From: Pseudoalteromonas shioyasakiensis
Lineage (GTDB): Bacteria; Pseudomonadota; Gammaproteobacteria; Enterobacterales; Alteromonadaceae
DNA length: 64,000 bases
Assembly (NCBI RefSeq): GCF_019134595.1
Contig: NZ_CP077771.1
Span: 186,001 to 250,000 of the forward strand
Reading direction: 5' to 3'
Part shown: in pieces, positions 24,838-47,168 of the stretch
How the letters are laid out: each line of letters starts with the position of its first letter
Position numbering within the stretch: the first letter of the stretch is position 1
Notes under the pieces: model-generated
Database searches by the model: none
What the model was told of the DNA's origin: nothing
The model's input: only the letters and a program-made list of their open reading frames with translations
Program-made: the position numbers and the translations under genes

Positions 24838-25092
24838 TTAAGAAGCTTGAGAAGTCAATTTAACGTATTTCTCTGCTAGCTCATCTAAAGTTTCACGATG
24901 ATTTGGATCTGGCTTAATGCAATCAATAGGACACACACTCACACAAGTAGGGTTATCGTAGTGCCCTACACACTCAGTGCATTTGTTTGGGTCTATTTGA
25001 TATATCTTCGCGCCCATATAAATAGCCTCATTCGGGCACTCCGGATCACACATATCACAGTTAATACATTTGTTATTGATGAGTAATGCCAT
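24838..25092 (-). CDS. yfhL: YfhL-family 4Fe-4S dicluster ferredoxin; island target gene
   Basis: An 84-residue ferredoxin with two cluster motifs, CINCDMCDPECPNEAI and CTECVGHYDNPTCVSVCPI; the eight-residue insertion in the second motif is typical of YfhL/FdxA-type 2[4Fe-4S] ferredoxins. The first 13 codons are part of a 40-bp sequence repeated at 50879-50918, so the genomic island is inserted at this 5' end and has restored the reading frame while replacing everything upstream of the start codon. Expression now depends on sequence carried by the island end. Confidence 0.95.
   Translation of the reverse strand: MALLINNKCINCDMCDPECPNEAIYMGAKIYQIDPNKCTECVGHYDNPTCVSVCPIDCIKPDPNHRETLDELAEKYVKLTSQAS
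25053..25092. other. island attachment site, left copy (attL/attR core)
   Basis: This 40-bp stretch, running from TATCACAGTTAATAC to GAGTAATGCCAT, is identical to 50879-50918. It covers codons 1-13 of the ferredoxin gene. It lies 247 bases before the first recombinase gene, the expected place for the integrase-proximal attachment site. Confidence 0.85.
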
Positions 25093-25339: not shown

Positions 25340-26998
25340 ATGAAAAACACGAAAAAACCCATTACAAAAGCCGAATACATCAAAGCAAAAGCAGTTTGGA
25401 AAGAGACGAAGGCACCTTTTTCAATGTTGTACATAAAAAAGTGTGTTACTGCGATTCAAATAATTTCAAATTTTGAGAGAAAAGTTGCTTTAAAACAAGG
25501 GATTAAAAATAAGCCCTTGGTTCGTTTGTCTAAATATGAGCAACAACACAATTTACGGCTCGTTTTCACCCCAAAAGGTAAGGTCATCTTCTATTCTAAT
25601 TTCCCAAAAAAATTAGAGATCCGAAACGTAAAGCTAGGGGAGTTACCAGAACTCACCATTGCAAAAGCAAGAGAGCTTACGCAAACGATATTAGAGGGAA
25701 GAACGATATTCGCCGATTTAAACACTATTTTTAAAGAGTATGAGCAGAACCTGACAAACCGACATTTACTCGCACCAACAAAGTTTGCAGCCGGTTCATT
25801 GAGAACATATAAGTGCAGAGTAAAAAAGCTTAAGCAGTACTTTAATATGAAAACGAGATTTCAAAGTATTACGGCAGGGGATCTTGAGCGAATCATTGAT
25901 AAAATTATTGCTAGCGAATCCAACAACCAAGCCATAGAGCTATTTGCTCAAATAAGGCGTATATGGAAGTTTGCCAAAAATAAGTTTAACAATGGCCGTA
26001 ATCCTGCTGCTGACATCGATGATTATTATGTTTCGGATCGAGTTGATACTCCCCGCCCGTGCCAAGCCTACACTGACTTAGATTCAATTGCAGAGTTGTG
26101 GATCAACCTTGCAACTACGCCATGCATTCACCAGAAGAACGCAGCCAGGTTTATGATTTTAACGGGCTTGAGGCCTATCAACATTCCTCAAATGAAATGG
26201 TCATGGCTGAATAGTATTACCTTTCCGACCTTAATAACTTTTCCGTCATCCATCGTAGGTGTACGTGGTGAAATGAAAAACCAAAAAGAATACAGACTCC
26301 CACTAACAAAAATGATGCGAACTATTATCCTTGAACAAAGGGCATGGATGGAATCGGCACGACCTAATTGCAATCAAGAGTTCATTTTTCTGCAACCACG
26401 CGACCCTATGAAGCAATTTTCTAAACGCTCCCTCGATAAAATTATCAAAGACTATTCTCCATTTGATGCAGTAAAAGGCGATATCGAACAGATTGTAATG
26501 AAAGGCTCTGCGGGTGCATTTTGTACTATGTGTAGAAGCTTTTTTAAATCCAATACAAAAGAGCTGTTGGTATCAAACGGCTACCACTTTAAGCATGCAG
26601 AAGACTTAACCCGGTTAGCACTTCATCATTTGAGAAAGTCTGATGATCCGAATGGGCTTAACTACGATAAATCTGAAGAGCTCTACGGCACTTCAACAAA
26701 ACTTAAGTTCAATGTATTTAAGTTACACGAGGTCAGCATTTTAAAACGAGTCCATGAGTTTCAAAGCTTAGAGTTAAGGCCTACAGCATTTCAGGTAAAC
26801 CAACAAAAAATAATCAAAGATAAGGAACATAAAAAAGCGCTAAGAGAGCGAATAAAAGCATCGCTTGTCCATAAAGGTGCATACATTCAATTCATAAATC
26901 AGCCTTTTGGCGATACAGGAAAATCAGTTAAAGAGTTAATTCTGACTAAAGATGGTAGAACTGTAATCGAAAGTTACCTTGATGATATTGCTGTTTAA
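25340..26998 (+). CDS. tyrosine recombinase-like integrase, first of a tandem pair
   Basis: A 552-residue protein with a tyrosine recombinase layout. The N-terminal half contains a core-binding-like SAM domain (LRTYKCRVKKLKQYFNMKT, SITAGDLERIIDKII). The catalytic half has Arg278 in ILTGLRPINIPQMKW, a second Arg in CTMCRSFFKS, His in LALHHLRKS, and candidate tyrosines in LNYDKSEELYG. The order R-R-H-Y is right but spacing in box II is longer than usual, so it is a divergent branch. It is 247 bases from the attachment site and reads into the island, as integrases do. Confidence 0.8.
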   Translation: MKNTKKPITKAEYIKAKAVWKETKAPFSMLYIKKCVTAIQIISNFERKVALKQGIKNKPLVRLSKYEQQHNLRLVFTPKGKVIFYSNFPKKLEIRNVKLGELPELTIAKARELTQTILEGRTIFADLNTIFKEYEQNLTNRHLLAPTKFAAGSLRTYKCRVKKLKQYFNMKTRFQSITAGDLERIIDKIIASESNNQAIELFAQIRRIWKFAKNKFNNGRNPAADIDDYYVSDRVDTPRPCQAYTDLDSIAELWINLATTPCIHQKNAARFMILTGLRPINIPQMKWSWLNSITFPTLITFPSSIVGVRGEMKNQKEYRLPLTKMMRTIILEQRAWMESARPNCNQEFIFLQPRDPMKQFSKRSLDKIIKDYSPFDAVKGDIEQIVMKGSAGAFCTMCRSFFKSNTKELLVSNGYHFKHAEDLTRLALHHLRKSDDPNGLNYDKSEELYGTSTKLKFNVFKLHEVSILKRVHEFQSLELRPTAFQVNQQKIIKDKEHKKALRERIKASLVHKGAYIQFINQPFGDTGKSVKELILTKDGRTVIESYLDDIAV

Positions 26999-27501: not shown

Positions 27502-29088
27502 ATGAAAAAAACCAACAAGAAGTTTAAGAAAAATAAAATAAGCAGAATATTAGATAAAATTAGAAACCTATCTAAGATAACAAGTGAAAATGAGTCTGAG
27601 AAGCAAAGTGAAAGTGAGTGTATTAGCAAGTCGAAATTCGACAGTATTAAACCACCATATAGTGATAAAGATATTTTAATATTATCTGAATGCGCTGCAG
27701 CAATTGAATACCCAGAACCAGAACCAGGTCAACCAAAAAAAGATCTTAGGATGTCTAAATATGACAGTGAAAAAAACTTAAGATACGTTTTTTATCCAAA
27801 TGGAGTCGTAAAAGTTTTTGCACATTTTGATAAAAAAATTGGGTTAAAAAGTACTCTCTTAGGTAGCTTTGAAACAATGACAGTCGCTGAAGCTGCTAGG
27901 CTTAGCGCCATCATTTTATATAATCACCTATATGGTCAAACGCTTGGAGAAGTTGCTGAACTGTATATAGAAGAATTAAAACAAGAGCAAAAGAGTAATC
28001 GTCGTTCATTTTCAGATGGAACCATTAGAACGTATTCATGCTACCTTAGAAAATTTTCAACTATCATTGGTGTTGATAAAAGGTTTATTGATATTACAAG
28101 TGATGATATTCAACTAGCATTTACGAAATTAAAGAGTGATCTTACAAGGGAATATGTAGAAACCATTTTCCATCGCGTTAAAGATTTATTTAAGTTTTCA
28201 ATAGACAGACTAAATTATAAGAACAACCCTTTTAATAATGTCAAAAGTTTATATTTATCTAAGAAAAGATGTGAAATAAGAAAGTATGAAGGCTACACAG
28301 ATAATGAATCTACAGCAAAGCTATTAATCGCTCTGGAACACAACGAAAATAGAAATTTAGTAAATGCTTTAAAGCTTTGTATTTTTGCCGCATTAAGACC
28401 TCAGTGCGCTTGCACATTAAAGAGCAGCTATTTAGATAATTTAGATGATCCGAAGGTTTTGATAATACCAGGTAGTACCACAACAGAAAGAGGGCCAACA
28501 AAAAACCAACAAGAACAGAAAATAATATTAACCAGTGAAATGATAAAAGCCATAAAAGATCAATTAGCATATTCAAAAAGAGTATATGGTGAGATAAAAG
28601 AGTACTTGTTTGTAAGCATACGAAATCCTGAAAATCATTTACCATACAATACGCTTAGGGAGTTCATGCAGAAGAATGCACCTAAAAATATGGATAAGGC
28701 AAACCCTTATAAAATTAACAAGAAAGGCTCTAAAGGTTCTTGCTTAACTATGTTTAGAAAACTTGCTAAAACAAATGTACTGGTTGCATTAACAAATAAT
28801 TATTCAACACTAACGGAAGCTGAAATTGAATCAAAAGAAATATTACACCACATAAGTAACTCTGAGAAAAAGCTATCAACAGAAGAAAAAAATGAATCTG
28901 AAGCAAATAGAATGCTTCATATTATACATACAAATCATGACCGCTCCGGAATGCATTACACTTCCGCTGAAGAGCAACACAGAACGTACTCAAAAAGATC
29001 AAACAATTTATTCATATTGCATGAAAATGCAATCCTTGAAGCTATGAATAAAATAAAGAAAAGTAATGAAGAATATCAAACCATTTAA
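27502..29088 (+). CDS. tyrosine recombinase-like integrase, second of a tandem pair
   Basis: A 528-residue lysine-rich protein that is clearly related to the first recombinase. Shared blocks include RMSKYDSEKNLRYVF versus RLSKYEQQHNLRLVF, TIRTYSCYLRKF versus LRTYKCRVKKL, IFAALRPQ (catalytic Arg) and the block TMFRKLAKTN, LHHISN, HYTSAEEQH with the second Arg, His and Tyr. The charged N-terminal 60 residues are unlike the first protein. Lower GC than its neighbours suggests a separate origin. Two consecutive recombinases may act together as in paired or trio recombinase modules. Confidence 0.78.
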   Translation: MKKTNKKFKKNKISRILDKIRNLSKITSENESEKQSESECISKSKFDSIKPPYSDKDILILSECAAAIEYPEPEPGQPKKDLRMSKYDSEKNLRYVFYPNGVVKVFAHFDKKIGLKSTLLGSFETMTVAEAARLSAIILYNHLYGQTLGEVAELYIEELKQEQKSNRRSFSDGTIRTYSCYLRKFSTIIGVDKRFIDITSDDIQLAFTKLKSDLTREYVETIFHRVKDLFKFSIDRLNYKNNPFNNVKSLYLSKKRCEIRKYEGYTDNESTAKLLIALEHNENRNLVNALKLCIFAALRPQCACTLKSSYLDNLDDPKVLIIPGSTTTERGPTKNQQEQKIILTSEMIKAIKDQLAYSKRVYGEIKEYLFVSIRNPENHLPYNTLREFMQKNAPKNMDKANPYKINKKGSKGSCLTMFRKLAKTNVLVALTNNYSTLTEAEIESKEILHHISNSEKKLSTEEKNESEANRMLHIIHTNHDRSGMHYTSAEEQHRTYSKRSNNLFILHENAILEAMNKIKKSNEEYQTI

Positions 29089-34561: not shown

Positions 34562-35437
34562 ATGACAAGCATTCAAAACAACAATACAAGTAGCCAACTT
34601 CAGCTCGCCTATCCTCGTTATTTTGATATTGATATGCGCTACTATGAAGGTGCAAACAATCATCAAAAGTTTAGCAATCGCCTGAAGCTCTCAACTCTCA
34701 TTGCCATTCGATTTACAATCATAACACCAGGCCTTGTGAGTTGGCTTTACTGCATCTCACACCGATTAGCCTTAGAGCATTTAAATAGGCTCACCAACGA
34801 TGGATTTTTAAAGCTCGTTAAAACACATCGTAGCCCCGATGGGCGCGTCTATGTTCCAACCTACAGTGCTGCAAAGTACGCTGAAGAAATAATGAATATT
34901 GATGTGTACTTCAGAGCCAATACCAACCCAGCTTTACAGTTTAACCATAACAACGTTATGCATAACCTAATTAACGCCTTTGTGATGCTAAGAGGCATTC
35001 ACAATTATCACAGTGATGGCACCTACGCCCCAATGTGGCAAAGCTTTATAACTGAACCCGAATTCAAACGCGCCAATACAAGCACAGAGACCCGAACAGT
35101 CGATGGCGCAGTACGCTTATTAGATGGCTCAATTGCAGCCATAGAAGTCGAACACTCCTTCAAGAACAAAGCAGCACGGCAAGCCATTCTTCTAAAATAC
35201 CTAGCCTCACTTAAAAATGGCGACTACGACAAAGTGTTTTTATTCTCCCAATCGCAGCAAATTTTTGACGACATAAAGCGCCTGCATGAACAACTATTCG
35301 AAGAAATGACAACACGGTTCGACAAGAAAACTCGCCACCCTCTCCTATCACCTGACGATGTCGAGCTACTGCAATCATCGATTATCTATCGAACCAAGCT
35401 ATGTGATGAAATAAGTGAGAGGTTTTATAGCATTTAG
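34562..35437 (+). CDS. winged-helix protein, replication-relaxation-like
   Basis: A 291-residue protein. Residues 30-110 look like a winged helix (LVSWLYCISHRLALEHLNRL, TNDGFLKLVKTHRSPDGR); residues 170-230 contain TRTVDGAVRLLDGSIAAIEVEHSF, an Asp...Glu-x-Glu pattern seen in replication-relaxation family proteins of plasmids and mobile elements. It may process or bind the adjacent structured block. The last ~50 bases of the gene belong to the direct repeat found again at 51095, and a decayed copy of its 3' end lies at about 53080-53235. Confidence 0.55.
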   Translation: MTSIQNNNTSSQLQLAYPRYFDIDMRYYEGANNHQKFSNRLKLSTLIAIRFTIITPGLVSWLYCISHRLALEHLNRLTNDGFLKLVKTHRSPDGRVYVPTYSAAKYAEEIMNIDVYFRANTNPALQFNHNNVMHNLINAFVMLRGIHNYHSDGTYAPMWQSFITEPEFKRANTSTETRTVDGAVRLLDGSIAAIEVEHSFKNKAARQAILLKYLASLKNGDYDKVFLFSQSQQIFDDIKRLHEQLFEEMTTRFDKKTRHPLLSPDDVELLQSSIIYRTKLCDEISERFYSI

Positions 35438-35931
35438 ATTTTGCTTACCAGTGGCGATAATAGCACCATATAAAAAGTAGAAATTTTTCGCAGAAATGGG
35501 CTATGAAGAAGGGTTCTAAATTGGGCATAACCGAGTAATGTCGGGAAAAATAAATTTAGGAGCCCTTAATGAATAACAAAGTTGGCATCTTTTGGTTTGC
35601 TGAAAACACATTAGTCTTTAAAGCTCAAAGTGCTATCGACTTAAAGCCAGATCAACTTGGATTTATTGATAGCACGCTGCAACACCAAGTTGAGTGGGAA
35701 GATAATAATATTTATCAATTGTTTGGTTTAATGCTAGACAACACTGACTACTACAACTTTCCCAGAGGTCGAGTTGTTTTTAATGTTGATCAAAATGCCT
35801 CATACGTATATTTAGACAAAAACTTGTTTAAAAAGCATATAGTTAAAAAGATAAAAGCTAATTTTTCTTTACTAGATACAAATGTCAGGTTCTTTACTGA
35901 TCCTCATTACAATTGCTTTGGTAGTATTTAG
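35380..35931 (+). repeat. ~0.55-kb direct repeat, left copy
   Basis: This segment, from within the 3' end of the winged-helix gene to the end of the 120-codon gene, is highly similar to 51095-51656 in the same orientation. The intergenic part is nearly identical, including TTTTGCTTAC, a 20-base run around AAAAAGTAGAAATTTTTCGC and GAAATGGGCTATGA. Confidence 0.88.
35569..35931 (+). CDS. hypothetical protein, duplicated at 51291
   Basis: A 120-residue protein starting MNNKVGIFWFAENTLVFKAQ, with AIDLKPDQLGFIDSTLQHQV and the end RFFTDPHYNCFG. No known domain was recognised; the style (Trp/Phe-rich N-terminus) resembles small mobile-element proteins. AGGAG 8 bases upstream sets the start. The paralogue at 51291 is about 90 percent identical and differs mainly at the C-terminus. 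Confidence 0.75.
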   Translation: MNNKVGIFWFAENTLVFKAQSAIDLKPDQLGFIDSTLQHQVEWEDNNIYQLFGLMLDNTDYYNFPRGRVVFNVDQNASYVYLDKNLFKKHIVKKIKANFSLLDTNVRFFTDPHYNCFGSI

Positions 35932-36000: not shown

Positions 36001-37104
36001 CTACTTACCAGAGGGGGCTGGTGATTGACTGCGTATAAAAGCCGGTATATCAAAAATATCACTTTTACTTGATACAACAGCTTTAGTTTTTGTGGTTTTC
36101 TCTACTTTAGGTATTGTTTCATCTATATTTTTGGCATGAATTAACTGACTTTTTGCACCTGTAGCTATGATGAGTATTTCAAAGTTATTCGCCAAACTCG
36201 TAATTTTAGATGCACCACAAATAACCACTGCATTTGGGCTAACTTGATGACGTACTGTATCCATTATGGTGTTGTAACTACCTAATGAAATCTCTTCGAC
36301 ACAATTAATTTGTACGATAACACCTGTACTTGTGCTCATATCAACACTGCTAACCAGAGGGTTGCTCAGGGCTTGCGTAAGAGCCATTTGTAAATCGCTT
36401 TCATCTGCACACTTTCCAACCCCCAATACAGCATCGCCTTGGGCGTCCATTACTCTTTGAAAGTCACGCAGATCTACGTTAATTAATCCCTGATAACACA
36501 GCATATCGATGAGTGAGGTAATTAAAGAATGTAAAATTTGATTACTGTGCTTAAAGGCATCAAATAAGCCAATGTCATTACCAAGCACCTCAATAAGTTG
36601 ATCATTTGGTAAAGTAACGACAGCATTAGCGAACTGTTTTAATTCATCAAGCCCTTGCTCAGCTACTTTTCGCCTAAAATCCCCCTCACTGGTAAAGGGT
36701 AATGTTGCAATACAGATTACAGGCTTATTAAGATCTTTGGCTAACTTAGCTATGTATGGGCTAGCTCCTGTGCCAGTGCCACCTCCTAAGCCAGTTGCGC
36801 ATAAGAGAATATCGCAGCTTTTGATAAGCGCTAATAATTGCTCTTCACTTTCTTGTGCGGCGAGTAACCCTATTTCTGGGTCTGCGCCAGCGCCATAGCC
36901 GTTTGTAAGCTCAGCACCTATCAACACAAAGTCATCACTTTGAGAGTGCTCTAATACAACCTTATCAGTATTAACGCAGTAAAACTTAGTTTGCGGGTTT
37001 TGAACCTCATTAAAAATGGTATTAACAGTGTTACAACCGCAGCCACCAATACCAAATACGCCAATAGACAAGCCATCTAAATTCTCAACTAACTCAAACA
37101 TCAT
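36001..37104 (-). CDS. accessory FtsZ paralogue with intact GTPase motifs and C-terminal peptide
   Basis: A 367-residue tubulin/FtsZ protein. GTP-binding features: IGVFGIGGCGCNTVNTI, FYCVNTDK, GYGAGADPEIG, tubulin signature GLGGGTGTGASP and PNDQLIEVLG. The T7 synergy loop GLINVDLRDF retains the Asp residues for GTP hydrolysis. After a short linker the C-terminus reads DIFDIPAFIRSQ, close to the FtsZ C-terminal peptide (DYLDIPAFLRKQ in E. coli) that binds FtsA and ZipA. It is not the division-cluster ftsZ: neighbours are WYL and HNH genes. A role as a division blocker in defence is inferred, not shown. Confidence 0.88.
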   Translation of the reverse strand: MMFELVENLDGLSIGVFGIGGCGCNTVNTIFNEVQNPQTKFYCVNTDKVVLEHSQSDDFVLIGAELTNGYGAGADPEIGLLAAQESEEQLLALIKSCDILLCATGLGGGTGTGASPYIAKLAKDLNKPVICIATLPFTSEGDFRRKVAEQGLDELKQFANAVVTLPNDQLIEVLGNDIGLFDAFKHSNQILHSLITSLIDMLCYQGLINVDLRDFQRVMDAQGDAVLGVGKCADESDLQMALTQALSNPLVSSVDMSTSTGVIVQINCVEEISLGSYNTIMDTVRHQVSPNAVVICGASKITSLANNFEILIIATGAKSQLIHAKNIDETIPKVEKTTKTKAVVSSKSDIFDIPAFIRSQSPAPSGK

Positions 37105-37165
37105 TGCTCCTCATTTTTTAAAGAGCATAACAACAAGGTGCGTCAATTTTTGACGCATCTGAAAA

Positions 37166-38140
37166 TCACAAGTTATAAGTGTTTGAAGCCTCATTTAGTT
37201 TTTTGATGACTCTGTTGCGTACAGCTTGGGGCTCTATTACCTCAAGCCAATGTGATGCTCTAAACAATTCACTTGTTAATTGCTCAGTGTCCTGCACATT
37301 GAATTTAAGCAGTGATGTTTGAGCATCTAACTTTTTCTGCTCTATTAACTCACCAAATTGTACAAACCCCAGATTCAATGAAGATTGAGACAGCACTTTG
37401 ATAATCAAGTTAATACTGTCCTGACGCTTTCCTTTATTAATCGCAGATCTTAATGAGCTTAACTGCTCTAAATTTGGTTCACGCCGTGTCTTTTGTAATA
37501 CTTTCACATTACGAATACGATAAACCGGCATCTGATAGCACTTGTCATGCAGCGTCCCTACCATAAACTGCGCCATAAGAATTCCGTTGTCTTCTTCAAG
37601 ACCATAGAAGCTAAGTTCAGTAAAAGCTAACCAGTGTGCCTGATCATATAAAACGCGATAAATCTCAGCACTAACTGAACGATTATGTTTTATTGCATGC
37701 TCGATTTGTTCAACAACCTTGCTGTCAAGATTCACCTTAATCGAGCTATTATTTTCTAGGTTTAACCATTCAGGTTTGATGCCATTTAGTCGCTGTAATG
37801 CAATATCAGCTTTAGCATGAATTGTTTGTTTAATATCTACAGGGATATTCTGTGGCAGAAGCTGCTCAAGCAGTAAGTAATGCTGAGCAAGCTCAATACT
37901 TAGTAGCGGTGAGCTTCCCCGCCAATCCTTACTAATAGACCATGCATAAGGTTTTGTTCGTGTATCTTTTTCAAGGCCAAAACAGCCTTGTTCGTATAAA
38001 GATTGAAGATCACGCTGCAACATGCGTGTGGAGAGGTCAATTCCTTGGTTAGATAGCTTAACTTTCAATTTGATAATTGTTATTCTTTGCGGTGTGAAAG
38101 GAATCAAACTTAAAAGCAAATTTTGTCGCCAAGATGACAT
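37166..38140 (-). CDS. WYL-domain transcriptional regulator
   Basis: A 324-residue protein: N-terminal winged helix (SNQGIDLSTRMLQRDLQSLY), central WYL domain with the ligand-binding segment YEVRYDQAHWLAFTELSFYG-like residues, and a C-terminal WCX extension (LTSELFRASHWLEVIEPQAV). Such BrxR/CapW-type regulators repress defence genes until phage infection. The frame extends upstream to a TTG at 38161, but AGGGA before ATG 38140 is preferred. It lies 61 bases before the FtsZ-like gene on the same strand and probably controls it. Confidence 0.82.
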   Translation of the reverse strand: MSSWRQNLLLSLIPFTPQRITIIKLKVKLSNQGIDLSTRMLQRDLQSLYEQGCFGLEKDTRTKPYAWSISKDWRGSSPLLSIELAQHYLLLEQLLPQNIPVDIKQTIHAKADIALQRLNGIKPEWLNLENNSSIKVNLDSKVVEQIEHAIKHNRSVSAEIYRVLYDQAHWLAFTELSFYGLEEDNGILMAQFMVGTLHDKCYQMPVYRIRNVKVLQKTRREPNLEQLSSLRSAINKGKRQDSINLIIKVLSQSSLNLGFVQFGELIEQKKLDAQTSLLKFNVQDTEQLTSELFRASHWLEVIEPQAVRNRVIKKLNEASNTYNL

Positions 38141-38167
38141 TAATTTAATCCCTATATACAATTAATA

Positions 38168-38935
38168 TCATCCGAAATGTTCTTCCCTATGACAATTTGG
38201 GCATAAAGCTATCGTATTTTCAACTGTATCATCTCCTCCATTTGCAAGTTTAATTTTATGATGAACCTCTAAGTAAGGAGTACCATCTTTTCGTCTAATG
38301 AAAGGTGCAGGTTGATTGCAACCTTGACACACACCATTTGCTCTAATTAAAGCTTCAGCTACAACATCAGGGTTTCTTTTAAAAAAAGTCGTAGTGACTG
38401 TTAATTTTTCAGGTTTTTTTGGGGACTTTCTCAACCGCTCTTCTCTAGCTTCTTTACTAGAGTTAAGCGCTTCCTTGACTTGCTCATCAAAGTCATCTAA
38501 ATGCTCTTGCAACTGATTTTTTTTGGGAAGTAAGCTTTTTAGTATTGAAATGACTTCATTATCAAGAGGACGTTGAAAAGAGTAATTTTGCTTGCAGAAG
38601 TGCCTTTGAAAATTACTTCTACGTTTATCACCCGTTGTCTTTGGTAGTAGTTTACTTAACCCCTGTTCATCTAATTGAATTAAATCATCTAAATTTGATA
38701 GATCTCTTAGTTCAACTCTATAACGAAGCTTACCCACTTTAGTATCTTGTATTTTTACTATTTCATACAAACCACAAAGCTCATAAAAACTCTTATTTAA
38801 ATTTTGAATAATGAATACAGAATCACCTACCTTTACTTTTTTTAAAGTTTTTTCGCCAGAAACACCATAGCCTTTTTTAAAATCAAAATTATCTTTATTT
38901 TTTGGACCATGATATGCATAAAAATAGTTTCTCAT
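38168..38935 (-). CDS. HNH endonuclease with N-terminal PUA/EVE-like domain
   Basis: About 255 residues. The N-terminus (RNYFYAYHGPKNKDN, GDSVFIIQNLNKSFYELCGLYEIV) is like the EVE/PUA-type modified-base readers found in restriction enzymes. The C-terminus is an HNH nuclease: zinc pair CQGC, then LEVHHKIKLANGGDDTVENTI and CPNCHREEH. It is therefore likely a DNA-cutting restriction-type enzyme. ATG 38935 follows AAGGAT and is preferred over 38965. Its stop is close to the WYL gene start (27 bases), so HNH, WYL and FtsZ-like may form one unit. Confidence 0.82.
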   Translation of the reverse strand: MRNYFYAYHGPKNKDNFDFKKGYGVSGEKTLKKVKVGDSVFIIQNLNKSFYELCGLYEIVKIQDTKVGKLRYRVELRDLSNLDDLIQLDEQGLSKLLPKTTGDKRRSNFQRHFCKQNYSFQRPLDNEVISILKSLLPKKNQLQEHLDDFDEQVKEALNSSKEAREERLRKSPKKPEKLTVTTTFFKRNPDVVAEALIRANGVCQGCNQPAPFIRRKDGTPYLEVHHKIKLANGGDDTVENTIALCPNCHREEHFG

Positions 38936-39107: not shown

Positions 39108-39560
39108 TTAAAGTTTCATTTCTCGTATAATTTCTTGTAAATCTTCATGCCAATGATTGCTAGCCGCTGTACTTGATTTTACTAAGTGAGTTTTATGCTT
39201 CTCGAGCTGTGATTTAATTGCGGCAATCCACTTTTCATCATTTGGTTTGGCTTCTAATACTTGTTCAAAAGCAAATAACATACTTGAGAAGAACCACAAA
39301 TATTTAGCGTATTCTGGATCATTTTTTGAATTAGCGACATACTCACCACTCGCTAATTCAGGGTGAGCGATACATAATGCTAAATACTGCTGATAAATTC
39401 CATGTGCTTGTGCTGAAGCAGAAGTATTACGCCCTACCTGAACTTGCCAGAAAGCAATAATCAAAGCCCCTATTGCCACAAATAAACTAATAATTGGAAC
39501 CCAATTTTTCCAAGTTTCAATATTTAATAAAACGGCAAAACCTGTTTCAAAACATGTCAT
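39108..39560 (-). CDS. small membrane protein partnered with the RT-nitrilase
   Basis: A 150-residue protein with one N-terminal membrane helix (WVPIISLFVAIGALIIAFW) and a helical cytoplasmic tail. Its ATG overlaps the stop of the reverse transcriptase gene by 4 bases (ATGA), so the two are translationally coupled. Small membrane partners are known beside some defence reverse transcriptases; whether it is the standard partner of DRT type 1 was not checked. Confidence 0.75.
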   Translation of the reverse strand: MTCFETGFAVLLNIETWKNWVPIISLFVAIGALIIAFWQVQVGRNTSASAQAHGIYQQYLALCIAHPELASGEYVANSKNDPEYAKYLWFFSSMLFAFEQVLEAKPNDEKWIAAIKSQLEKHKTHLVKSSTAASNHWHEDLQEIIREMKL

Positions 39561-42500
39561 CTGTTTACTCCTGCTGGTTTAGTTTTAACGGCTCTATATT
39601 TTTTTATTTTTCTTGTGAAAGCTGCTAAATCAATGTCAGCAGTACTAATTGATATTTGTTTGCTTCCATGAGCATGAGAGATTAAACGATCATAACGTTC
39701 TTTATAAGGTGCTTGTATCGTTGATCCTCCAAACTCACCAATATTAGAAATAACTATATGTTGATACATATGATATTGAAGAGCAGCAGCCATATTATCG
39801 AAGGTGTTTACATCTTGGTTATGAGCAACCACTACAAATAAATCTGTAGTATTTCTTAAATCCGCGGCTAGCTTTATATCTGTCGCGTCATAACAAATAG
39901 CCCCACTAATTCTGAAAGGTCCTTCATCATACCCATGTAATTCTAAAATGTGCTGACAAGGCCTATAACCAATGATTCCAAGAGCAAGCTCATCCTGAGT
40001 CATGTTTTCTTTACCTTGATCTCTGATCACCCATTGCCTTCCACTTTCTCTATAATCTGGTATAAACCACCTAGCTACATTAACTAACTTTCCTTCATGA
40101 TTAGTAAATACCAATCCGGCAAAAATAATAGCACCAGTTGTATCAGCAAGTCGTTTAATGAGATCTTGATCATCAATATGTACAGCTACTTCTGCAAAAA
40201 CAATTAAGTCAGCAAACGGTTTAGTTTTTTCACCTTGAGCTTGTGCTTTACTTTCTAAAGTTTTTAACGCTAGTTTACAAACCGAAGATAAGTGCTCACG
40301 GTGCTTAGTCCTATAGACTGGATTATTAAGTTCAGGATCGGAAACACTAAAGTCCGACGACATAGGCAAAAGCTGCTGAACTGTTGCAACCCTTAGGTAG
40401 TTACGTTTGCTGGGTCTTGCAACTCTCGTTGGTAATGCGGGTAAAGAAGAAGAGTTACAAATAAGACTATTTAAATAACTCAACCTTTTTTTTAAGCAAA
40501 ATTCAAATGTTTCTAAGCACTCTATAGAGCGTACATCTAAATCACTCACAAATGTTGATTCGAAGCCTGGCCATTGTAGGCAACGAATTAATAAGTCTGA
40601 AAACCAGTCTGTTACTTTAGAATATTCCCCAGTTAAAGTCTCAGGCGAATGCATCATACCCATGCGCCTTTTGAACCAACTTGTTTTCACTCCTTTATAA
40701 GCGACGATATCACCTTGCTTCCACCGGTTAGTTGTAAAGTCTGCACTACCAATTACAGAGGCCCTTAATATAATACCTATCCAATAAATGACTTTTTTAC
40801 TTTCGCTGTTTTTCTCAATCCATTCTGGAAACTCATATCGAGGATCCTTAAATGATACAGTCCCTTTTCGCTTAGATTCAGCAATCTTAACTGACGGTCT
40901 CCACAACTCAGACCATCTTGTAACCGCATCCAATTTAATTTCTATTTCAGCCGGTGTGGCACCCAGTATCGGTGTATTTCCAAAGCTCTTTTGTTGAGTT
41001 GCTTGTAATAAACTTAATGCTAACTTTATTAACGCATGCTCAAACTCAAACCCATTTGAGTCAGAATGAATAACCTTGGATAAAAGCTGCTTTTTAGCTC
41101 TAGGCTGAGCACTTGATTGAGGGGCTGCCCAATCAAATTTCTTAGTAAGCGCCTGAAGATTTTTTCTTTTTTTAAGCTGTTTCCATATCGCATTCCAAAA
41201 GAGGCCGCCTCTCTTTGCGAAAACGTCCAACGCCTTGGCTTTATTTACATCGTCAAAATCACACATTGACTTAATCAGAGAAGCAGCATAAATATCAAAC
41301 TTTCCTGTCATTTGTGCTGAGATTTCATATAAAGCGCAGTGTTCATACTTAAACTTTGATTGAGCGCCAGCTAAAATAATGTGCAACTCATTTTGGAGAG
41401 TCGAATTTGGCTTTTCTTTGATAACTGGTTTATTAGTAGCTGCAAGTAACATTAATGCTTGTCTTTCAACAAATTTAGAACTTTTATTAGCGCTTGCAAT
41501 AACTGCTAATGCATAGTTAGCAATCAAATCAATCACAGAGTTTGGTTTAATTGAACTTGGGTAGATTGACTTCTGAAATGTCATTATGAAATCAAGTCCA
41601 CATCTAAATATGTCTGCTAGCAAATAATCCATCATTTGCGCTGTAATAGTGTCATTTATTTTTGCGCTATTCGCATAACTACTACGAGAAAAAATAGCCT
41701 CAACTACTGGCTCAAATAAATCAGCTTCTGGGTGAATTTCCATTGCCTTTCTCAACACTAATGCAAGCGAAGGATCTTTCATCCAAGCTGTAATCAACTT
41801 TTTAGCTAACAGTTCTTCTCCACTATCAGCGTTACTTATTCTGCGTTTATTTCTTACAATGCTTTCTAACCTATTTGCTGCAAATCGCTTTAATGTATCT
41901 GGTCGAATATCATGATCGTAATTAGCAATTTGTAACAACGCAGAGTCATTGTGAGAACTTTTTAAAGGAGGTAAATCTATATCTTCAATATCTAAAAAGC
42001 TCTCTAAAAGACCTGTAACTGAATCTAAAACATCACGATCAGCTGGTCCACTGAGCTCTCCTTGAGCCATTTCAATCCGATTCGACATACTGCCACTATC
42101 GTCTAAATCTGAAAAAAGAGTCACCTTTGTTTTATCATTATTCAGTTTAAGATCAGCGCCACCATGCTTTTTCAAAAGATTATTTATATTTCTATTTAAA
42201 GCACGCCTTATAGAGCCTACAGATAGGTTTTTTGCACTTATAACTAAACGTAAATCATCCACATAGCGACAATAATCATGGACAAAAATCGAGCTTTGAG
42301 GGCTTAGTTTCCTACCGATTAATTCACCCACCTTTTCATCAAATTCGATTAAAAATGCATTGGCAAAAAAACCTGCAGATACCAACCCCTGCGGTAAACC
42401 TTGCTCAACATTGCCTAGCTTTAAATCGGCAGCTAGTTTTAAGTCGTGCTTTTTCCACTTCCAATCTGAAATACGGTTAAACGCTTCCCAAAATTTTGTG

Positions 42501-43234
42501 CACTCTGGGTTACCAAATTTTTTAGATATTCTTTTTAATCTAACTATTAATAAATCTCTACAAATTGTGTTGTAGAACTTTGATAAATCCAAATTAACAA
42601 CGTAAACCTCCTCCGAAGAAGAGGCTTGATTTAAAACACTTCTTCCTAACTCCATTGGTCTTTTTAAGAAGTTTTGATAATCAGTAAAAAACTTTCTGTA
42701 TGTATCGCTATTTCCCCAACGAAACCAAGCTTGATCTTTGCTTTTCCAATCACATACCAATCTGTTTCCGTAGCTATACACCTTATTACTTCTTGCTTGT
42801 GCAAAACTCTGATTTTTATCGCTGCAATTACCTTGCTCTGATTCAACCGCATCAGCCAGGCACAACATAGCAGCACTAGCCCATGTTTGATCTCTAATCG
42901 ACATATGAGCCAATGGCCTTATAGGTGGGCTTTCTTCTCGTTTATCAATACTTTTAGGATGCCAACCATCTTGATCAATAACCCATGTTTCACTTTTTGC
43001 AGCAGGTACCATCTCTAAAGGTTTAAGCTTGTTTCTAATAATCTGCCTTTTCCATTCGCTTACATTGTCCTCAATATTTAAGGCAGATACATCTAACTCC
43101 AATGTATCTGCATACCAGTTAAACGCACGAATGTAATTATGTGTTTTTTTCCAAGCTTGAGTGAGCACGACTTCATCAGCAAGATATTCAATCGTTGGTT
43201 TTAAAGTACGGTATTTTGGGTTAATTAGTTTCAT
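39557..43234 (-). CDS. defence-associated reverse transcriptase, RT-nitrilase fusion (DRT type 1)
   Basis: A 1225-residue fusion. The reverse transcriptase core spans about 190-420: motif A VNLDLSKFYNTI (Asp216), LPQGLVSAGFFANAF and the YVDD box at 324-327. The middle is alpha-helical. The last 220 residues are a carbon-nitrogen hydrolase (nitrilase) domain with Glu1015 (VFAEVAV), a candidate Lys1075 (DQGKENM) and Cys1114 (GAICYDATD). RT fused to nitrilase defines UG1/DRT type 1 anti-phage systems. An AGGGAT lies just before ATG. Shared strand with the small membrane protein, HNH and WYL genes; the 140-base gap before HNH suggests a separate unit. Confidence 0.9.
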   Translation of the reverse strand: MKLINPKYRTLKPTIEYLADEVVLTQAWKKTHNYIRAFNWYADTLELDVSALNIEDNVSEWKRQIIRNKLKPLEMVPAAKSETWVIDQDGWHPKSIDKREESPPIRPLAHMSIRDQTWASAAMLCLADAVESEQGNCSDKNQSFAQARSNKVYSYGNRLVCDWKSKDQAWFRWGNSDTYRKFFTDYQNFLKRPMELGRSVLNQASSSEEVYVVNLDLSKFYNTICRDLLIVRLKRISKKFGNPECTKFWEAFNRISDWKWKKHDLKLAADLKLGNVEQGLPQGLVSAGFFANAFLIEFDEKVGELIGRKLSPQSSIFVHDYCRYVDDLRLVISAKNLSVGSIRRALNRNINNLLKKHGGADLKLNNDKTKVTLFSDLDDSGSMSNRIEMAQGELSGPADRDVLDSVTGLLESFLDIEDIDLPPLKSSHNDSALLQIANYDHDIRPDTLKRFAANRLESIVRNKRRISNADSGEELLAKKLITAWMKDPSLALVLRKAMEIHPEADLFEPVVEAIFSRSSYANSAKINDTITAQMMDYLLADIFRCGLDFIMTFQKSIYPSSIKPNSVIDLIANYALAVIASANKSSKFVERQALMLLAATNKPVIKEKPNSTLQNELHIILAGAQSKFKYEHCALYEISAQMTGKFDIYAASLIKSMCDFDDVNKAKALDVFAKRGGLFWNAIWKQLKKRKNLQALTKKFDWAAPQSSAQPRAKKQLLSKVIHSDSNGFEFEHALIKLALSLLQATQQKSFGNTPILGATPAEIEIKLDAVTRWSELWRPSVKIAESKRKGTVSFKDPRYEFPEWIEKNSESKKVIYWIGIILRASVIGSADFTTNRWKQGDIVAYKGVKTSWFKRRMGMMHSPETLTGEYSKVTDWFSDLLIRCLQWPGFESTFVSDLDVRSIECLETFEFCLKKRLSYLNSLICNSSSLPALPTRVARPSKRNYLRVATVQQLLPMSSDFSVSDPELNNPVYRTKHREHLSSVCKLALKTLESKAQAQGEKTKPFADLIVFAEVAVHIDDQDLIKRLADTTGAIIFAGLVFTNHEGKLVNVARWFIPDYRESGRQWVIRDQGKENMTQDELALGIIGYRPCQHILELHGYDEGPFRISGAICYDATDIKLAADLRNTTDLFVVVAHNQDVNTFDNMAAALQYHMYQHIVISNIGEFGGSTIQAPYKERYDRLISHAHGSKQISISTADIDLAAFTRKIKKYRAVKTKPAGVNR

Positions 43235-43686: not shown

Positions 43687-44994
43687 TTATTTTCCACAGC
43701 AATTTTTATACTTTGCATTAAAGCCGCACGAACAAAGTTCATTTCGCCCTAATTTAGTAGTTTTAGTAAAAGACCTCTGTGGCCCTCTTTGCACTTTGGC
43801 ACCTTTGATTTCCTCTAGTAAGCCAGAAAATAGATCTCTTATTTTTAAGTACTTTTCATCAAAGTACAAAGCTGCATCTAAGTTACCAGTAGCGATTGCT
43901 TGGAATAAATATTTTTGAGCTAGTTTGTCATCTTTTGGAACTAACTCACCTTTGTAATAGATTTTACCTAATTCAAACATTGATTTATTACAGCCTCGCA
44001 TTGCTGCTGCTTGAAAACTCTCAACAGCTTTATCACCATTAACAACGCAAGCTTTGCCTGAAGAATATAAAACACCTAACTTTTGAAAAAGAAAAACTGT
44101 GTCTTCAGCTTTTTTATGGGTAAGGTATTTATGTGCTTTTTTATAGTCTTCATTCAAATAATGACACCACCCCAAATAAGCGTAAGCAGCGTAAAATCCC
44201 CTTTTTACTAATGCGCTTAGTAATATTGTTATCTCAGTAATTTGAAGGTTATCTACTTTATGATTGAGACATAAAAGAGCATATTTAAATAGAATTTGAT
44301 GGCTTTGCTGAGCAATACTGACTTGTTTATCATCAGAGCTAATAACATCGGTTATCGTTTTTTTTGAGCAAAGTTGAAAAGCACTTTTATAAGACTCCGC
44401 TGCAAAAGCATACATACTCTGTGCTCGCGCAGTGAAAGATTTATCATCAAAGTCTTCACTTTCAAAAACTTCGCCCATTTTTTTGTAAAAATCACCTAAG
44501 CTTAAATACTCTTTATAGTCACAAGACATTAAACAGTTAAACCATAAATCTTTATGTTCTTGGCCCCCCACATTTATTAACTCGTATTTTGGTATACATT
44601 TACCAAGCCCAAAGCTCAAGTAAGCACTCTCCAGCAAGTTTAAAACTTGTGTTCTTGAAACTAACGCGTTACTCACCAATATCTCTTTACTTAACTCCTT
44701 ATTATGTACTCCATCATTTGTTAACTCCCTAACACCATGAAATAGCTCTCTATCAGCTCCGTGAATTGCGTTGATTTCTGCTAGTTCGTTTATTTGCTCC
44801 CATAAGTTTTTACTAGTAAATTCATAACTATGGCGTTGAGCATAAAGTAAACATAAGGTCTCAAGTATCCTGCGAAATTTAAATAAACTAACATCAGGGC
44901 TTACATTCATCAGTAATAGTGCATTTTTGTAATCTGACGCAATGGACTCTTTGAACAATGCTACGAATTGCTCATCATTATTTACAAAGCTCAT
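43687..44994 (-). CDS. DUF4145-like / Sel1-repeat / SEC-C protein, viperin partner
   Basis: A 435-residue protein with three parts: an N-terminal DUF4145-like helical domain (FRRILETLCLLYAQR, LFHGVRELTNDGVHN), middle Sel1/TPR-type repeats (AAYAYLGWCHYLNEDYKKAHKY, KAVESFQAAAMRG, AQKYLFQAIATGN), and a C-terminal SEC-C zinc motif GRNELCSCGFNAKYKNCCGK. Its ATG overlaps the viperin stop by 4 bases. The layout suggests a sensing or scaffold role; it may be the least described part of this viperin locus. Confidence 0.75.
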   Translation of the reverse strand: MSFVNNDEQFVALFKESIASDYKNALLLMNVSPDVSLFKFRRILETLCLLYAQRHSYEFTSKNLWEQINELAEINAIHGADRELFHGVRELTNDGVHNKELSKEILVSNALVSRTQVLNLLESAYLSFGLGKCIPKYELINVGGQEHKDLWFNCLMSCDYKEYLSLGDFYKKMGEVFESEDFDDKSFTARAQSMYAFAAESYKSAFQLCSKKTITDVISSDDKQVSIAQQSHQILFKYALLCLNHKVDNLQITEITILLSALVKRGFYAAYAYLGWCHYLNEDYKKAHKYLTHKKAEDTVFLFQKLGVLYSSGKACVVNGDKAVESFQAAAMRGCNKSMFELGKIYYKGELVPKDDKLAQKYLFQAIATGNLDAALYFDEKYLKIRDLFSGLLEEIKGAKVQRGPQRSFTKTTKLGRNELCSCGFNAKYKNCCGK

Positions 44995-45959
44995 GCTAAT
45001 ACTCCCTGTTTTAAGGCAATGTTATTTTGTTTATTCTTGTGCTGATACTCACTATTACTAATGAGGCTAATTGTATTATCTTTTTTATATCGGCTAGCAA
45101 ACGTCTCCCAGTTTATCTGGCAAACCTCTAATGCTTTCTCTACCCCTACATCTAAAATTAAATCACCATAAATATATCCATTTTGAGTTGAACTATTTTG
45201 ATAAAAACGCCCTTGAGGGTTAATCATCAAATAAGAAGTCGTCATCGCTTCATTATCTTCTGCCACCATGACTTCTTTTAATGAAGCGTGACGGTTTACA
45301 AAAACAGTAAACTGCTCATCAGAAATTAATAAGTTGTCATTTAATACAGGTAGTACTTGGAAAACTTTCCATTTTTCAGGTTTTATTTCTGCTATTAGCT
45401 GCTCGAATGACTCTTGGTAATTAAGGCTATTAACAACGGTGTTTATTTTTATTGTGATGGATGGGTTAACTTTACGAAGCTGTTTAACAGCTTTAATTAA
45501 ATCGTGAGTATCAAAAGAATTATCTTTGCGATCTATTCGACCAATATCTTCACGTGTAGTCATATATTGGCTATCAAAACTTATCCCGATCATTGAAAAC
45601 ATAGCGCCATAATTGTTTATGAAGGAGCTTGTTAGGTAATGGCCATTAGTAATTAAAGACAAATTAAAGCCAAGTGACTTTGCTTTCATAATCAATTGTG
45701 CAAATCGCTTTTTAAGTATTAAAGGCTCCCCACCTGCAAAATTAATACGCACTGTTTTATAAGGGAAAACCGCTTTTACTTGATTGCTATTAACATCAAA
45801 AAAGTAACTGGCTAACTTTTCAAGCATTAACTCTGCGCTATTTTCATTTGCATGTAATTCGTTGGGCCGGTCCCACTTTGCATAGCAAAATTTGCATGAA
45901 TAATTACATACTTCTGTAACGTGATAATTAATTACCAACTCATCAATCGTCTTATTCAT
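44991..45959 (-). CDS. prokaryotic viperin (radical SAM nucleotide dehydratase)
   Basis: A 322-residue radical SAM enzyme. The cluster motif VCNYSCKFCYAKW (Cys18, Cys22, Cys25) and its flanks NYHVTEVCNY match viperins, which convert CTP, UTP or GTP to 3'-deoxy-3',4'-didehydro nucleotides that end viral RNA chains. NFAGGEPLI binds the SAM amino group, and ISFDSQ and KINTVVN follow at the expected places. It has no transmembrane helix, as in other bacterial viperins. It is coupled on both sides: a 37-codon ORF overlaps its start and the Sel1/SEC-C gene overlaps its stop. Confidence 0.88.
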   Translation of the reverse strand: MNKTIDELVINYHVTEVCNYSCKFCYAKWDRPNELHANENSAELMLEKLASYFFDVNSNQVKAVFPYKTVRINFAGGEPLILKKRFAQLIMKAKSLGFNLSLITNGHYLTSSFINNYGAMFSMIGISFDSQYMTTREDIGRIDRKDNSFDTHDLIKAVKQLRKVNPSITIKINTVVNSLNYQESFEQLIAEIKPEKWKVFQVLPVLNDNLLISDEQFTVFVNRHASLKEVMVAEDNEAMTTSYLMINPQGRFYQNSSTQNGYIYGDLILDVGVEKALEVCQINWETFASRYKKDNTISLISNSEYQHKNKQNNIALKQGVLA

Positions 45960-46065
45960 ATGAACCTCCTAATACAAGGTTCAATAACGCTGTTTTCACA
46001 GCCGCATCTGCTGATGAAAGTTCATTGGTTTCACTGAGTAATGAAAAAAGAATTAAATGATACAT
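45952..46065 (-). CDS. 37-residue small ORF coupled to viperin
   Basis: A small frame MYHLILFSLLSETNELSSAD, then AAVKTALLNLVLGGSYE, starts at ATG 46065, 7 bases after AGGAG, and its stop TAA at 45952 overlaps the viperin ATG at 45959 by 8 bases. It also contains a second internal AGGAGG that serves viperin. This may be a real small hydrophobic protein, a leader that couples translation, or a peptide substrate. Nothing similar was recognised. Confidence 0.6.
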   Translation of the reverse strand: MYHLILFSLLSETNELSSADAAVKTALLNLVLGGSYE

Positions 46066-46139
46066 AATGTACTCCTAATATCACCGCGGACTGCGGTGAC
46101 TTCAGGAGGAAGTATCGAACTGTGAAATTCACAAAAAAG
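46066..46139 (-). promoter_or_regulatory. duplicated leader with dyad and hairpin, copy in front of viperin
   Basis: Read on the minus strand: dyad TGTGAATTTCACA (46121-46133), spacer, hairpin TCACCGC/GCGGTGA (46081-46099), then ATTAGGAG and the start at 46065. The same layout and much of the same sequence occurs at 47169-47241 in front of the kinase. Likely a shared operator and a post-transcriptional element. Confidence 0.7.
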
Positions 46140-46562
46140 GGAAATAACAAATTATTTAAACTTAAACCTGCAAAACCATTTCAATCATTAATATGATGAT
46201 TGTTACGCGACCATTTAGCTAGATAAGTTGTTAATACAATACACCCATCGAGCATTGAGAAACGATATCAGCTTTACTTATTGCCGAGTGGGATGACGAT
46301 ACATTTAGTGGATGATTAACTTGAGAGAGGGCGGTCTAACTTCAATCACGGTTAAAGGTCACAAAAAAGTGATAAGTGTTTAATCAAGTCTGGGCTGGTA
46401 AGCTTCACGAGTCATTTACAGCCGTTCAAAAGAACTTAATCGCTGTATAGTTGATTGAGAATACAATTTCTATTCTACTTGTTTGCTGCCGAAAATATGG
46501 CATTGCTGTCTAAAAGGGAAATGACTCATGTGCTCACTTCCCTCTTAATTGATAAACTATTT
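46140..46562. other. intergenic stretch between kinase and viperin unit
   Basis: About 420 bases with no supported gene. It holds the kinase terminator at 46516-46542 and, by position, the promoter of the viperin unit. No other structure was recognised. Confidence 0.45.
46516..46542 (-). terminator. intrinsic terminator after the kinase
   Basis: GGGAAATGA and TCACTTCCC form a 9-bp stem with one mismatch 20 bases downstream of the kinase stop, followed on the minus strand by TTTTA. The kinase and viperin are therefore separate transcripts. Confidence 0.65.
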
Positions 46563-47168
46563 TTAGATGCGGCTACACGATAGGGCACGCTCAACTTGAG
46601 CTTTCATTAGTTGGTAGTTTTCTTCAATCGAGCGCCCATTCTTTTCGGATGTATCAATCTCGACTACTGGAATATTAAACCATTGAAAGATCTTTTTATA
46701 GGCTGTTTCTACACAACTATTTTGTGTAATAGCATCTCCATACCACTGAATACTGCCACATCTAGCCCCTATCCTACTATTTATTGTTTCGGCATCGGCC
46801 TTAACAAATATAATGACTTCTGGCAGAAGAATGTTTTGAGAGATATTAAGTGTATCAAAGACATTCTTAACGATTTTTTCTCCAAGCATGATCGTCTGAT
46901 ACGCTAAAGTTGAAAAAATATACCTGTCGACTACGACATCCTGTGACTTTATTGCTCCGGAGACAGTATGACTTCTCAGAAAGTTATTAAGTAAAAAAAA
47001 CAAAAAAGCACTCTCTTTCGACTCAAAAGAATCAATGTTCTTTCTCAACTCCAGTGCTTCTTCCACTATAGCTGAATGAACAACAACATTTTTTTCTTTT
47101 GCATATAAAGAACTTAGTGTAGTTTTTCCGCAGGCATCAAGCCCTTCAAAAACTATAAATCTATTCAT
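46563..47168 (-). CDS. dTMP/CMP kinase-like nucleotide kinase associated with viperin
   Basis: A 201-residue P-loop kinase. The N-terminus FIVFEGLDACGKTTLSSLYA is the Walker A of thymidylate kinases; DVVVDRYIFSTLAYQ holds the DR(Y) substrate motif, and RIGARCGSI occupies the lid. The family supplies nucleoside triphosphates by phosphorylating monophosphates; beside viperin it corresponds to the CMPK2-type partner also linked to viperin in vertebrates. It shares the same leader as the viperin unit but has its own terminator. Confidence 0.85.
   Translation of the reverse strand: MNRFIVFEGLDACGKTTLSSLYAKEKNVVVHSAIVEEALELRKNIDSFESKESAFLFFLLNNFLRSHTVSGAIKSQDVVVDRYIFSTLAYQTIMLGEKIVKNVFDTLNISQNILLPEVIIFVKADAETINSRIGARCGSIQWYGDAITQNSCVETAYKKIFQWFNIPVVEIDTSEKNGRSIEENYQLMKAQVERALSCSRI

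Follow-up and report, generated by a model that had tools for sequence, protein, structure and literature searches.

A second FtsZ paired with a WYL-family regulator in Pseudoalteromonas: a candidate damage-type switch acting on cell division

A second FtsZ

The window, that is the whole stretch of 64,000 nucleotides that was analysed, comprises bases 186001-250000 of contig C2 in a two-contig genome of 4.72 Mb, and its nearest relatives are Pseudoalteromonas. It contains a gene for a 367 amino acid paralogue of the division protein FtsZ, here called FtsZ2 (36001..37104, minus strand). Upstream of ftsZ2 follow a predicted -10 element, TATGCT with an upstream TG whose G is at -14 (37124..37129, minus strand; position and numbering derived from the sequence), a palindrome, TGCGTCAA-AAA-TTGACGCA (37139..37157), and a gene for a WYL-family regulator (37166..38140, minus strand), which starts with an ATG at 38140 in a reading frame extendable to a TTG at 38161. 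An HNH nuclease gene (38168..38935, minus strand) lies 27 bp before this ATG. The WYL-linked palindrome before ftsZ2 is new here.

FtsZ2 has a GTPase domain, a T7 loop, a short linker and the C-terminal docking peptide DIFDIPAFIRSQ. It matches the Pfam families Tubulin (E 5.2e-39) and FtsZ_C (E 1.1e-16), both above cut-off, and its best solved relatives are FtsZs. The 22 FtsZ2 members that were aligned all share the nucleotide-binding glycines, the T7 residues N209, D211 and D214 and, apart from one nearly invariant T, the motif GGGTGTG; the proline of the docking peptide is invariant and the arginine nearly so. The tails in 17 WYL-bearing Pseudoalteromonas loci read DIPAFIRNQ, DIPAFIRSQ, DIPALIRKQ or DIPAYIRTK, and that of native FtsZ DIPAFLRKQ. 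Locus L114, outside the 22, has an open reading frame (ORF) without the docking tail. Because the GTPase, T7 and docking residues are kept, FtsZ2 is not obviously a dead copy. In another locus (L106, G043:C4:668-988) there is what is left of a second FtsZ2-like copy, with stops and 70% identical over residues 197-304.

The same genome has a native ftsZ at C1:554496 with 35% identity to FtsZ2, so the FtsZ2 gene is not its sole ftsZ. A preliminary description of the window had stated that the paralogue keeps the GTP signature, the T7 Asp residues and the docking tail, and this is borne out; its objection that the gene might be the only ftsZ of the cell does not apply. Close relatives (52-100% identity) were found in 18 of 108 Pseudoalteromonas genomes, and each of these genomes has a further, native-like match elsewhere (split into two pieces in G059). 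FtsZ2 scores under the NCBIfam ftsZ equivalog cut-off (281.7 vs 295.2 bits), and in a maximum-likelihood tree 22 FtsZ2 sequences split from 16 native and two Gram-positive FtsZs with support of 100/100. Long branches were flagged by the program in this tree, where L089 (98% identity) stands in for the absent window sequence.

A class-wide search with an FtsZ2 profile matched FtsZ in 323 of 369 genomes, and FtsZ2 and native FtsZ were inseparable in it. No relative was confirmed in the viral contigs searched for FtsZ2. Among phage records 23 have a match, all below 60% identity, and the 20 listed range from 27.7 to 39.7%; because this is about the identity level of cellular FtsZ, no phage copy of FtsZ2 was seen.

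Linkage to a WYL-family regulator

The product of the gene upstream of ftsZ2 matches WYL in PADLOC (E 2.4e-9), and in Pfam WCX alone, below cut-off (21.4 vs 23.9 bits). Its association with FtsZ2 was followed in 33 FtsZ2 loci: the window, 17 other Pseudoalteromonas loci and 15 from order-wide searches, one of which (L121) entered via its WYL match and was then found to carry FtsZ2 too. A WYL gene is beside or near FtsZ2 in 27 of the 33 loci, and in 17 of the 18 FtsZ2-bearing Pseudoalteromonas genomes. It is directly upstream and co-directional in 24 loci, adjacent and convergent in two (L116, L119) and separated by two genes in one (L114). The distances of the two proteins correlate over the 27 loci (Mantel r 0.905, reached in 0 of 5000 permutations; the row for L092, which has two WYL genes, is the non-adjacent WYL).

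Two of the FtsZ2 genes without a WYL partner have other neighbours: a gene for a SPOR-domain protein in L105 (10587-11138, minus strand) and one for an FtsK-gamma-domain protein in L107 (8399-9238, minus strand). These hint at other division partners.

The search was also made from the WYL side. It gave 29 loci besides the window, reaching about 1.5 kb on each side, with a stop within the matched span flagged in four (L063, L068, L076, L078). A neighbouring FtsZ is found in 12 of the 29: in 7/7 loci of genus f25 g38, which belongs to another family, in 0/15 of the sister genus g47 and in 5/7 of the others. The FtsZ of f25 g38 contains GVGGCGGN in all seven loci and is 34-37% identical to FtsZ2 of the window, and on these grounds it is a likely, though unproven, FtsZ2. 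In the 15 loci of f25 g47 (L063, L064, L066-L075, L077, L080, L081) an operator-type site precedes the WYL gene and no FtsZ neighbours it within the stretch.

A shared operator and promoter layout

A palindrome of the form TGCGWC-N7-GWCGCA precedes ftsZ2 with a score of 10-12 out of 12 in all 27 WYL-bearing loci, and scores 7-8, which is background, in all six FtsZ2 loci without WYL. For comparison, 77 of 3300 stretches drawn at random from these loci score at least 10, possibly with true sites among them. Of 107 Pseudoalteromonas genomes, 14 contain the exact form, TGCGTCAA-N3-TTGACGCA, at one site each and always directly before ftsZ2; none of the 89 genomes without FtsZ2 contains it. Among the remaining FtsZ2 genomes, three differ from it at one position (L091, L092, L097) and the fourth, L105, lacks WYL. 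In the genome of the window the palindrome has a single copy in both its exact and its relaxed form, searched over the whole 4.7 Mb, and the relaxed-form search found none at the nuclease gene. In this genome the operator thus looks dedicated to ftsZ2.

A TAnnnT follows exactly 9 bp past the palindrome in 24 of the 27 loci, and the next best offset is found in 4. With the first base of TAnnnT numbered -12, the operator of the window runs from -40 to -22 and has the -35 region at its middle, 25 of the 27 loci have a G at -14, and no good -35 hexamer was seen at the ftsZ2 promoter. In other genera all 17 loci checked show operator-N9-TAnnnT in the promoter of the WYL gene itself, ten of them (L060-L065, L074, L079-L081) chosen for an already visible site and the other seven, those of f25 g38, with one operator mismatch. 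Because the WYL promoter carries the same layout in these genera, the layout goes with the WYL protein. That the palindrome is a terminator of the WYL gene was considered and rejected, because in L116 and L119 the WYL gene is downstream and convergent and the palindrome still precedes ftsZ2.

Genomic surroundings

In Pseudoalteromonas the WYL-ftsZ2 pair is often situated at an insertion hotspot flanked by yegQ and yfhL. Of 23 FtsZ2-less genomes examined, 8 have matches to the two genes separated by 6-27 bp, and the remaining 15 show either a wider gap or one that does not close within the sequence covered; 20 FtsZ2-less genomes were picked for closeness and contig size and are not a random sample. 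The edge of the island in the window is marked by the yfhL ferredoxin gene (24841-25092, minus strand) and two recombinase-like genes (25340-26998 and 27502-29088, plus strand). A member of this recombinase-like cluster in L099 matches Pfam Phage_integrase.

The preliminary description had placed ftsZ2 in a defence-rich island, and PADLOC agrees: it identifies a DRT type 1 system (39108..43234, minus strand; Drt1b 39108-39560, Drt1a 39557-43234) and a prokaryotic viperin, pVip, which together with a DUF4145 protein forms a neighbouring cassette (43687..45959, minus strand). The block 43687-47168, with pVip, its DUF4145 partner and a further gene (46563-47168), is also found in L101. The apparent counterpart of this further gene beside the viperin of P. 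shioyasakiensis (L122) is annotated as a deoxynucleoside kinase. Convergent with ftsZ2 is a gene for a 120 amino acid protein (35569..35931, plus strand), which has a similar copy about 15.7 kb away (51291-51656); its relatives adjoin ftsZ2 or are near yfhL in L090, L098, L129 and L131, and by position in L122 and L123. The product of 34562-35437 weakly resembles the MobC replication-relaxation family (E 1.2e-8, a score well under the cut-off).

The nuclease upstream of the WYL gene matches Pfam HNH (E 9.6e-12). Its C-terminal half matches EcoKMcrA (6ghc, E 6.7e-30) and its N-terminal half the UPF0310 protein 2p5d (E 1.9e-4) and PH1033 (1wmm), which we take to be EVE-type folds. A predicted model (pLDDT 89) agrees with these matches; the preliminary description had likewise given the HNH nuclease a reader-like domain. 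The protein is an ordinary type IV-like restriction enzyme and the upstream neighbour in this strain. The further proposal of a conserved HNH-WYL-FtsZ trio did not hold: in the seven nearest loci (L003-L009) WYL is beside FtsZ2 in all and HNH in none, and the nuclease was rejected as a steady partner of FtsZ2. Relatives with 98% (HNH) and 92% (WYL) identity, whose contigs have the same length (884,924), suggest that one further strain may have the trio.

The gene upstream of the pair changes from strain to strain. A restriction or defence gene was found among the eight nearest upstream genes in 16 of the 21 Pseudoalteromonas loci: EVE-HNH in the window, GmrSD or GmrSD-like genes (L089, L122), HNH_2 (L090, and L100 by homology), PD-T4-3 GIY-YIG (L098), ZorE (L097), helicase/PLD proteins with type I restriction (L094, and L096 by homology), PDC-S11 (L095), SoFic (L092), viperin (L101 by homology), an IetA-like ATPase (L099, and L102 by homology through this gene alone), and, from record annotation, McrBC (L123) and type I restriction (L125), as is the assignment of L122. 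The homology is in each case to scanned genes. Outside the 16 are L104 (a weak match, E 2.2e-5), L124 (HipA alone), L091 (the adjacent gene, a relative of L102:8025-8792, has no PADLOC match), L093 (an unscanned upstream gene on the opposite strand) and L103 (a transposase piece with the contig end near). In 10 of 17 WYL-bearing Pseudoalteromonas loci the upstream gene, on the same strand, overlaps the WYL ORF or stops no more than 51 bp short of it.

Chromid records give a similar picture: all four with FtsZ2 have restriction-modification (RM), McrBC, GmrSD-like or HipA genes close to the yfhL site, and none of these is annotated there in the three without FtsZ2, in a gene table that is incomplete. 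The yfhL site is not defence-free without FtsZ2, however, since 3 of 10 proteins scanned from such sites (L129, L131, L145), of 150 interval proteins, have PADLOC matches. In L131 a GmrSD operon occupies the yfhL site without WYL-FtsZ2; its neighbours share 91-99% identity with those of L089, and its GmrSD proteins 52-55%. L131 and L089 are thus a natural pair, with a GmrSD neighbourhood that lacks or has WYL-FtsZ2, where the site of L089 is judged by likeness alone because its contig ends just after ftsZ2. Neighbours are mixed in other genera. PADLOC identified PDC-S01 in L110 and the reverse transcriptase RT UG34 in L120, and no match for the scanned upstream gene in five of seven loci (L113, L115, L116, L119, L121), among them a substrate-binding protein (L113) and an exo/endonuclease-phosphatase (L115).

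None of the PADLOC families matches FtsZ2 at E 0.001, and, as far as the literature on FtsZ with WYL, on FtsZ in defence and on second FtsZs was searched, no FtsZ-WYL pair of this kind was found in it.

Discussion

A profile of 22 WYL relatives reaches five PDB chain sequences of WYL regulators (best E 2.8e-7), four of which we take to be the regulator DriD. The remaining one, 8tp8, is a structure of DriD, which is activated by single-stranded DNA according to the part of the source available (PMC11804915). In Caulobacter DriD switches on the division inhibitor didA and needs no recA for this (PMC4211646, in part). Its site, ATACGAC(X)7GTCGTAT, overlaps the -35 position, and its promoters have weak -35 hexamers, a constant distance to the -10 element and a conserved G-14, as far as the accessible text describes them (PMC12340889). 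The exact core of this site, CGAC-N7-GTCG, precedes ftsZ2 in 7 of 10 loci from other genera. In spacing the likeness lies in the constancy of the distance. At the level of sequence, therefore, the likeness between WYL and DriD is weak in the protein and strong in the promoter, and the layout of the promoter speaks for a DriD-type DNA-damage switch rather than for a dedicated phage sensor.

The reading that we favour, at about even confidence, is that WYL and ftsZ2 form a two-gene, SOS-independent damage switch of the DriD type with FtsZ2 as output and probable division brake. The WYL protein, probably as a dimer, would bind directly to the palindrome that covers the -35 region before ftsZ2. 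Its ligand would most likely be single-stranded DNA from cut or damaged DNA, and the ligand-bound protein would recruit RNA polymerase to a promoter that has a -10 element alone. FtsZ2, the sole visible output of the switch in this genome, would then enter the division ring or compete with it, which its retained GTPase, polymer and docking-peptide features should allow, and delay or stop division for as long as the damage lasts. The changing restriction and defence genes upstream in Pseudoalteromonas would supply the signal by their cutting.

The steps of this reading are not equally secure. What the sequence itself shows are the features of FtsZ2, its pairing with WYL, the dedicated operator and the geometry of the promoter. 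Control of ftsZ2 by WYL through the palindrome is very probable, and activation of the DriD kind, as opposed to repression, is probable. Single-stranded DNA or DNA damage is the somewhat favoured signal. For FtsZ2 as a division brake, which its sequence features would permit, the chances appear balanced. A benefit of the pair during phage attack is conceivable and rather doubtful.

Several observations weigh against a DriD-type switch. The PDB profile match spans about 110 C-terminal residues of WYL, so that the likeness to the DriD protein is remote; two single-sequence PDB searches and one with a profile of close relatives found no WYL structure, and the AlphaFold model of WYL is poor (pLDDT 49). 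Of the DriD-type architecture, a wHTH followed by a three-helix bundle, WYL and WCX, the matches thus reach the WYL part in PADLOC, WCX below its Pfam cut-off and the C-terminal part in the PDB. Six FtsZ2 loci have no WYL (L105, L107, L108, L109, L111, L112). The Pseudoalteromonas half sites, CGTC-N7-GACG, differ from the DriD core by an A/T swap. The WYL promoter of the present genome has no operator-type site, as the relaxed form occurs once and the WYL gene thus has no operator of its own, and the seven pairs of f25 g38 have the operator before WYL alone and none directly before ftsZ. A palindrome over the -35 region could, from its position, also serve a repressor.

The preliminary description had proposed an abortive or growth-arrest response to infection, in which FtsZ2 would be the effector of phage defence, released via WYL and working with the adjoining nuclease. 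Parts of it stand: the FtsZ is accessory, its docking tail intact, its control apparently conditional and the island rich in defence genes. The varied restriction and defence genes upstream, their closeness to the WYL ORF and the chromid records speak in its favour. The trio is not fixed, however, the neighbours in other genera are mixed and mostly without PADLOC match, the GmrSD operon of L131 does without the pair, the nuclease gene has no operator in this genome, FtsZ2 resembles no PADLOC family and the promoter layout is of the DNA-damage (DriD) type. This proposal seems unlikely as a whole, and a damage-type switch with an FtsZ paralogue as output is better supported. FtsZ2 might instead be a reserve or decoy that escapes or soaks up SulA or phage inhibitors of FtsZ so that division continues or resumes. 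The T7 phage protein Gp0.4 captures FtsZ, and their complex is able to set off immunity, as stated in the part of the paper available (PMC13423816); a protein that keeps the catalytic residues at about 35% identity to native FtsZ would suit such a role. The studied switch with the same promoter layout, DriD, has a division inhibitor among its outputs, which speaks against a reserve or decoy, an improbable reading.

It is also conceivable, if quite unlikely, that FtsZ2 is a passenger, an additional FtsZ controlled by a WYL repressor similar to BrxR or CapW, and has defence genes nearby only because it shares the yegQ-yfhL hotspot with them. WYL repressors with inverted repeats are known to co-localise with defence systems (PMC9122601, in the part seen), yegQ and yfhL are nearly contiguous in several FtsZ2-less genomes, and at least three FtsZ2-less genomes have PADLOC-positive genes there. 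Against this, the operator is upstream of the -10 element at one spacing across genera, unlike the R-BOX1 of BrxR, and the pair persists in other genera with correlated distances. A partition cytoskeleton of the mobile island, similar to TubZ, would suit the recombinase-like genes and the weakly MobC-like gene nearby. This tubulin-type role was set aside as extremely improbable because FtsZ2 has FtsZ_C and a divisome docking tail, the marks of a cell-division FtsZ, and its best solved relatives are FtsZs; no search aimed at a TubR/tubC-like pair was made.

A spare FtsZ behind an apparently dedicated switch, which has the layout of a damage switch and is often near virus-defence genes, suggests that these marine bacteria may pause or alter division when DNA is cut. 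A bolder version of the DriD-type switch, in which a mobile DriD-like sensor with an FtsZ brake plugs in downstream of varied DNA-cutting defences and stops division during restriction, would be a novel type of immune accessory and is rather unlikely. To our knowledge damage checkpoints stop division through small inhibitors such as SulA, SidA and DidA. If the favoured reading is true, a second FtsZ with its catalytic residues would be the output of a checkpoint with an apparent one-gene regulon, which would be a new mode of Z-ring control, would extend DriD-type control to gammaproteobacteria and would link restriction to the cell cycle. The system is also compact, with one promoter, one target and one effector.

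Comparison with known systems

The nuclease of the window resembles the McrA-type HNH type IV restriction enzymes EcoKMcrA and VcaM4I and has nothing unusual. FtsZ2 has the GTPase, T7 loop, FtsZ_C and docking tail in common with canonical FtsZ (TIGR00065). It differs in being below the equivalog cut-off, in forming a separate group in the tree, in being a second gene in the genome and in its T1 motif, GGCGCNT compared with GGGGGNA.

The WYL repressors of defence islands, BrxR and presumably CapW, have a WYL gene with an inverted repeat as in the window. The R-BOX1 of BrxR is downstream of the promoter and represses, according to the available part of the paper (PMC9122601), whereas the repeat of the window covers the -35 region, upstream of the -10 element and at a fixed spacing to it; a repeat just downstream of the -10, as in BrxR, is absent. 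The mycobacterial PafBC promoter has a similar spacing to that of ftsZ2, and its motif was not found in the papers. PafBC is a WYL activator that is switched on by single-stranded DNA and acts where sigma domain 4 would meet the -35 element (PMC11804915, in part). It is a heterodimer, while the window has one WYL gene and a symmetric palindrome.

The closest comparison is with the SOS-independent division checkpoint DriD-DidA of Caulobacter crescentus. Both systems have a WYL regulator and a target acting in cell division, and the DriD layout of a CGAC-N7-GTCG-type palindrome over the -35 region, a fixed distance to the -10 element and G-14 is matched by the ftsZ2 promoter. The effector DidA is a small division inhibitor, as the accessible part of the source describes it (PMC4211646), and that of the WYL-ftsZ2 pair is an FtsZ paralogue. 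Unlike DriD, the WYL regulator has a single target site in its genome, and its gene is paired with ftsZ2, often near defence genes.

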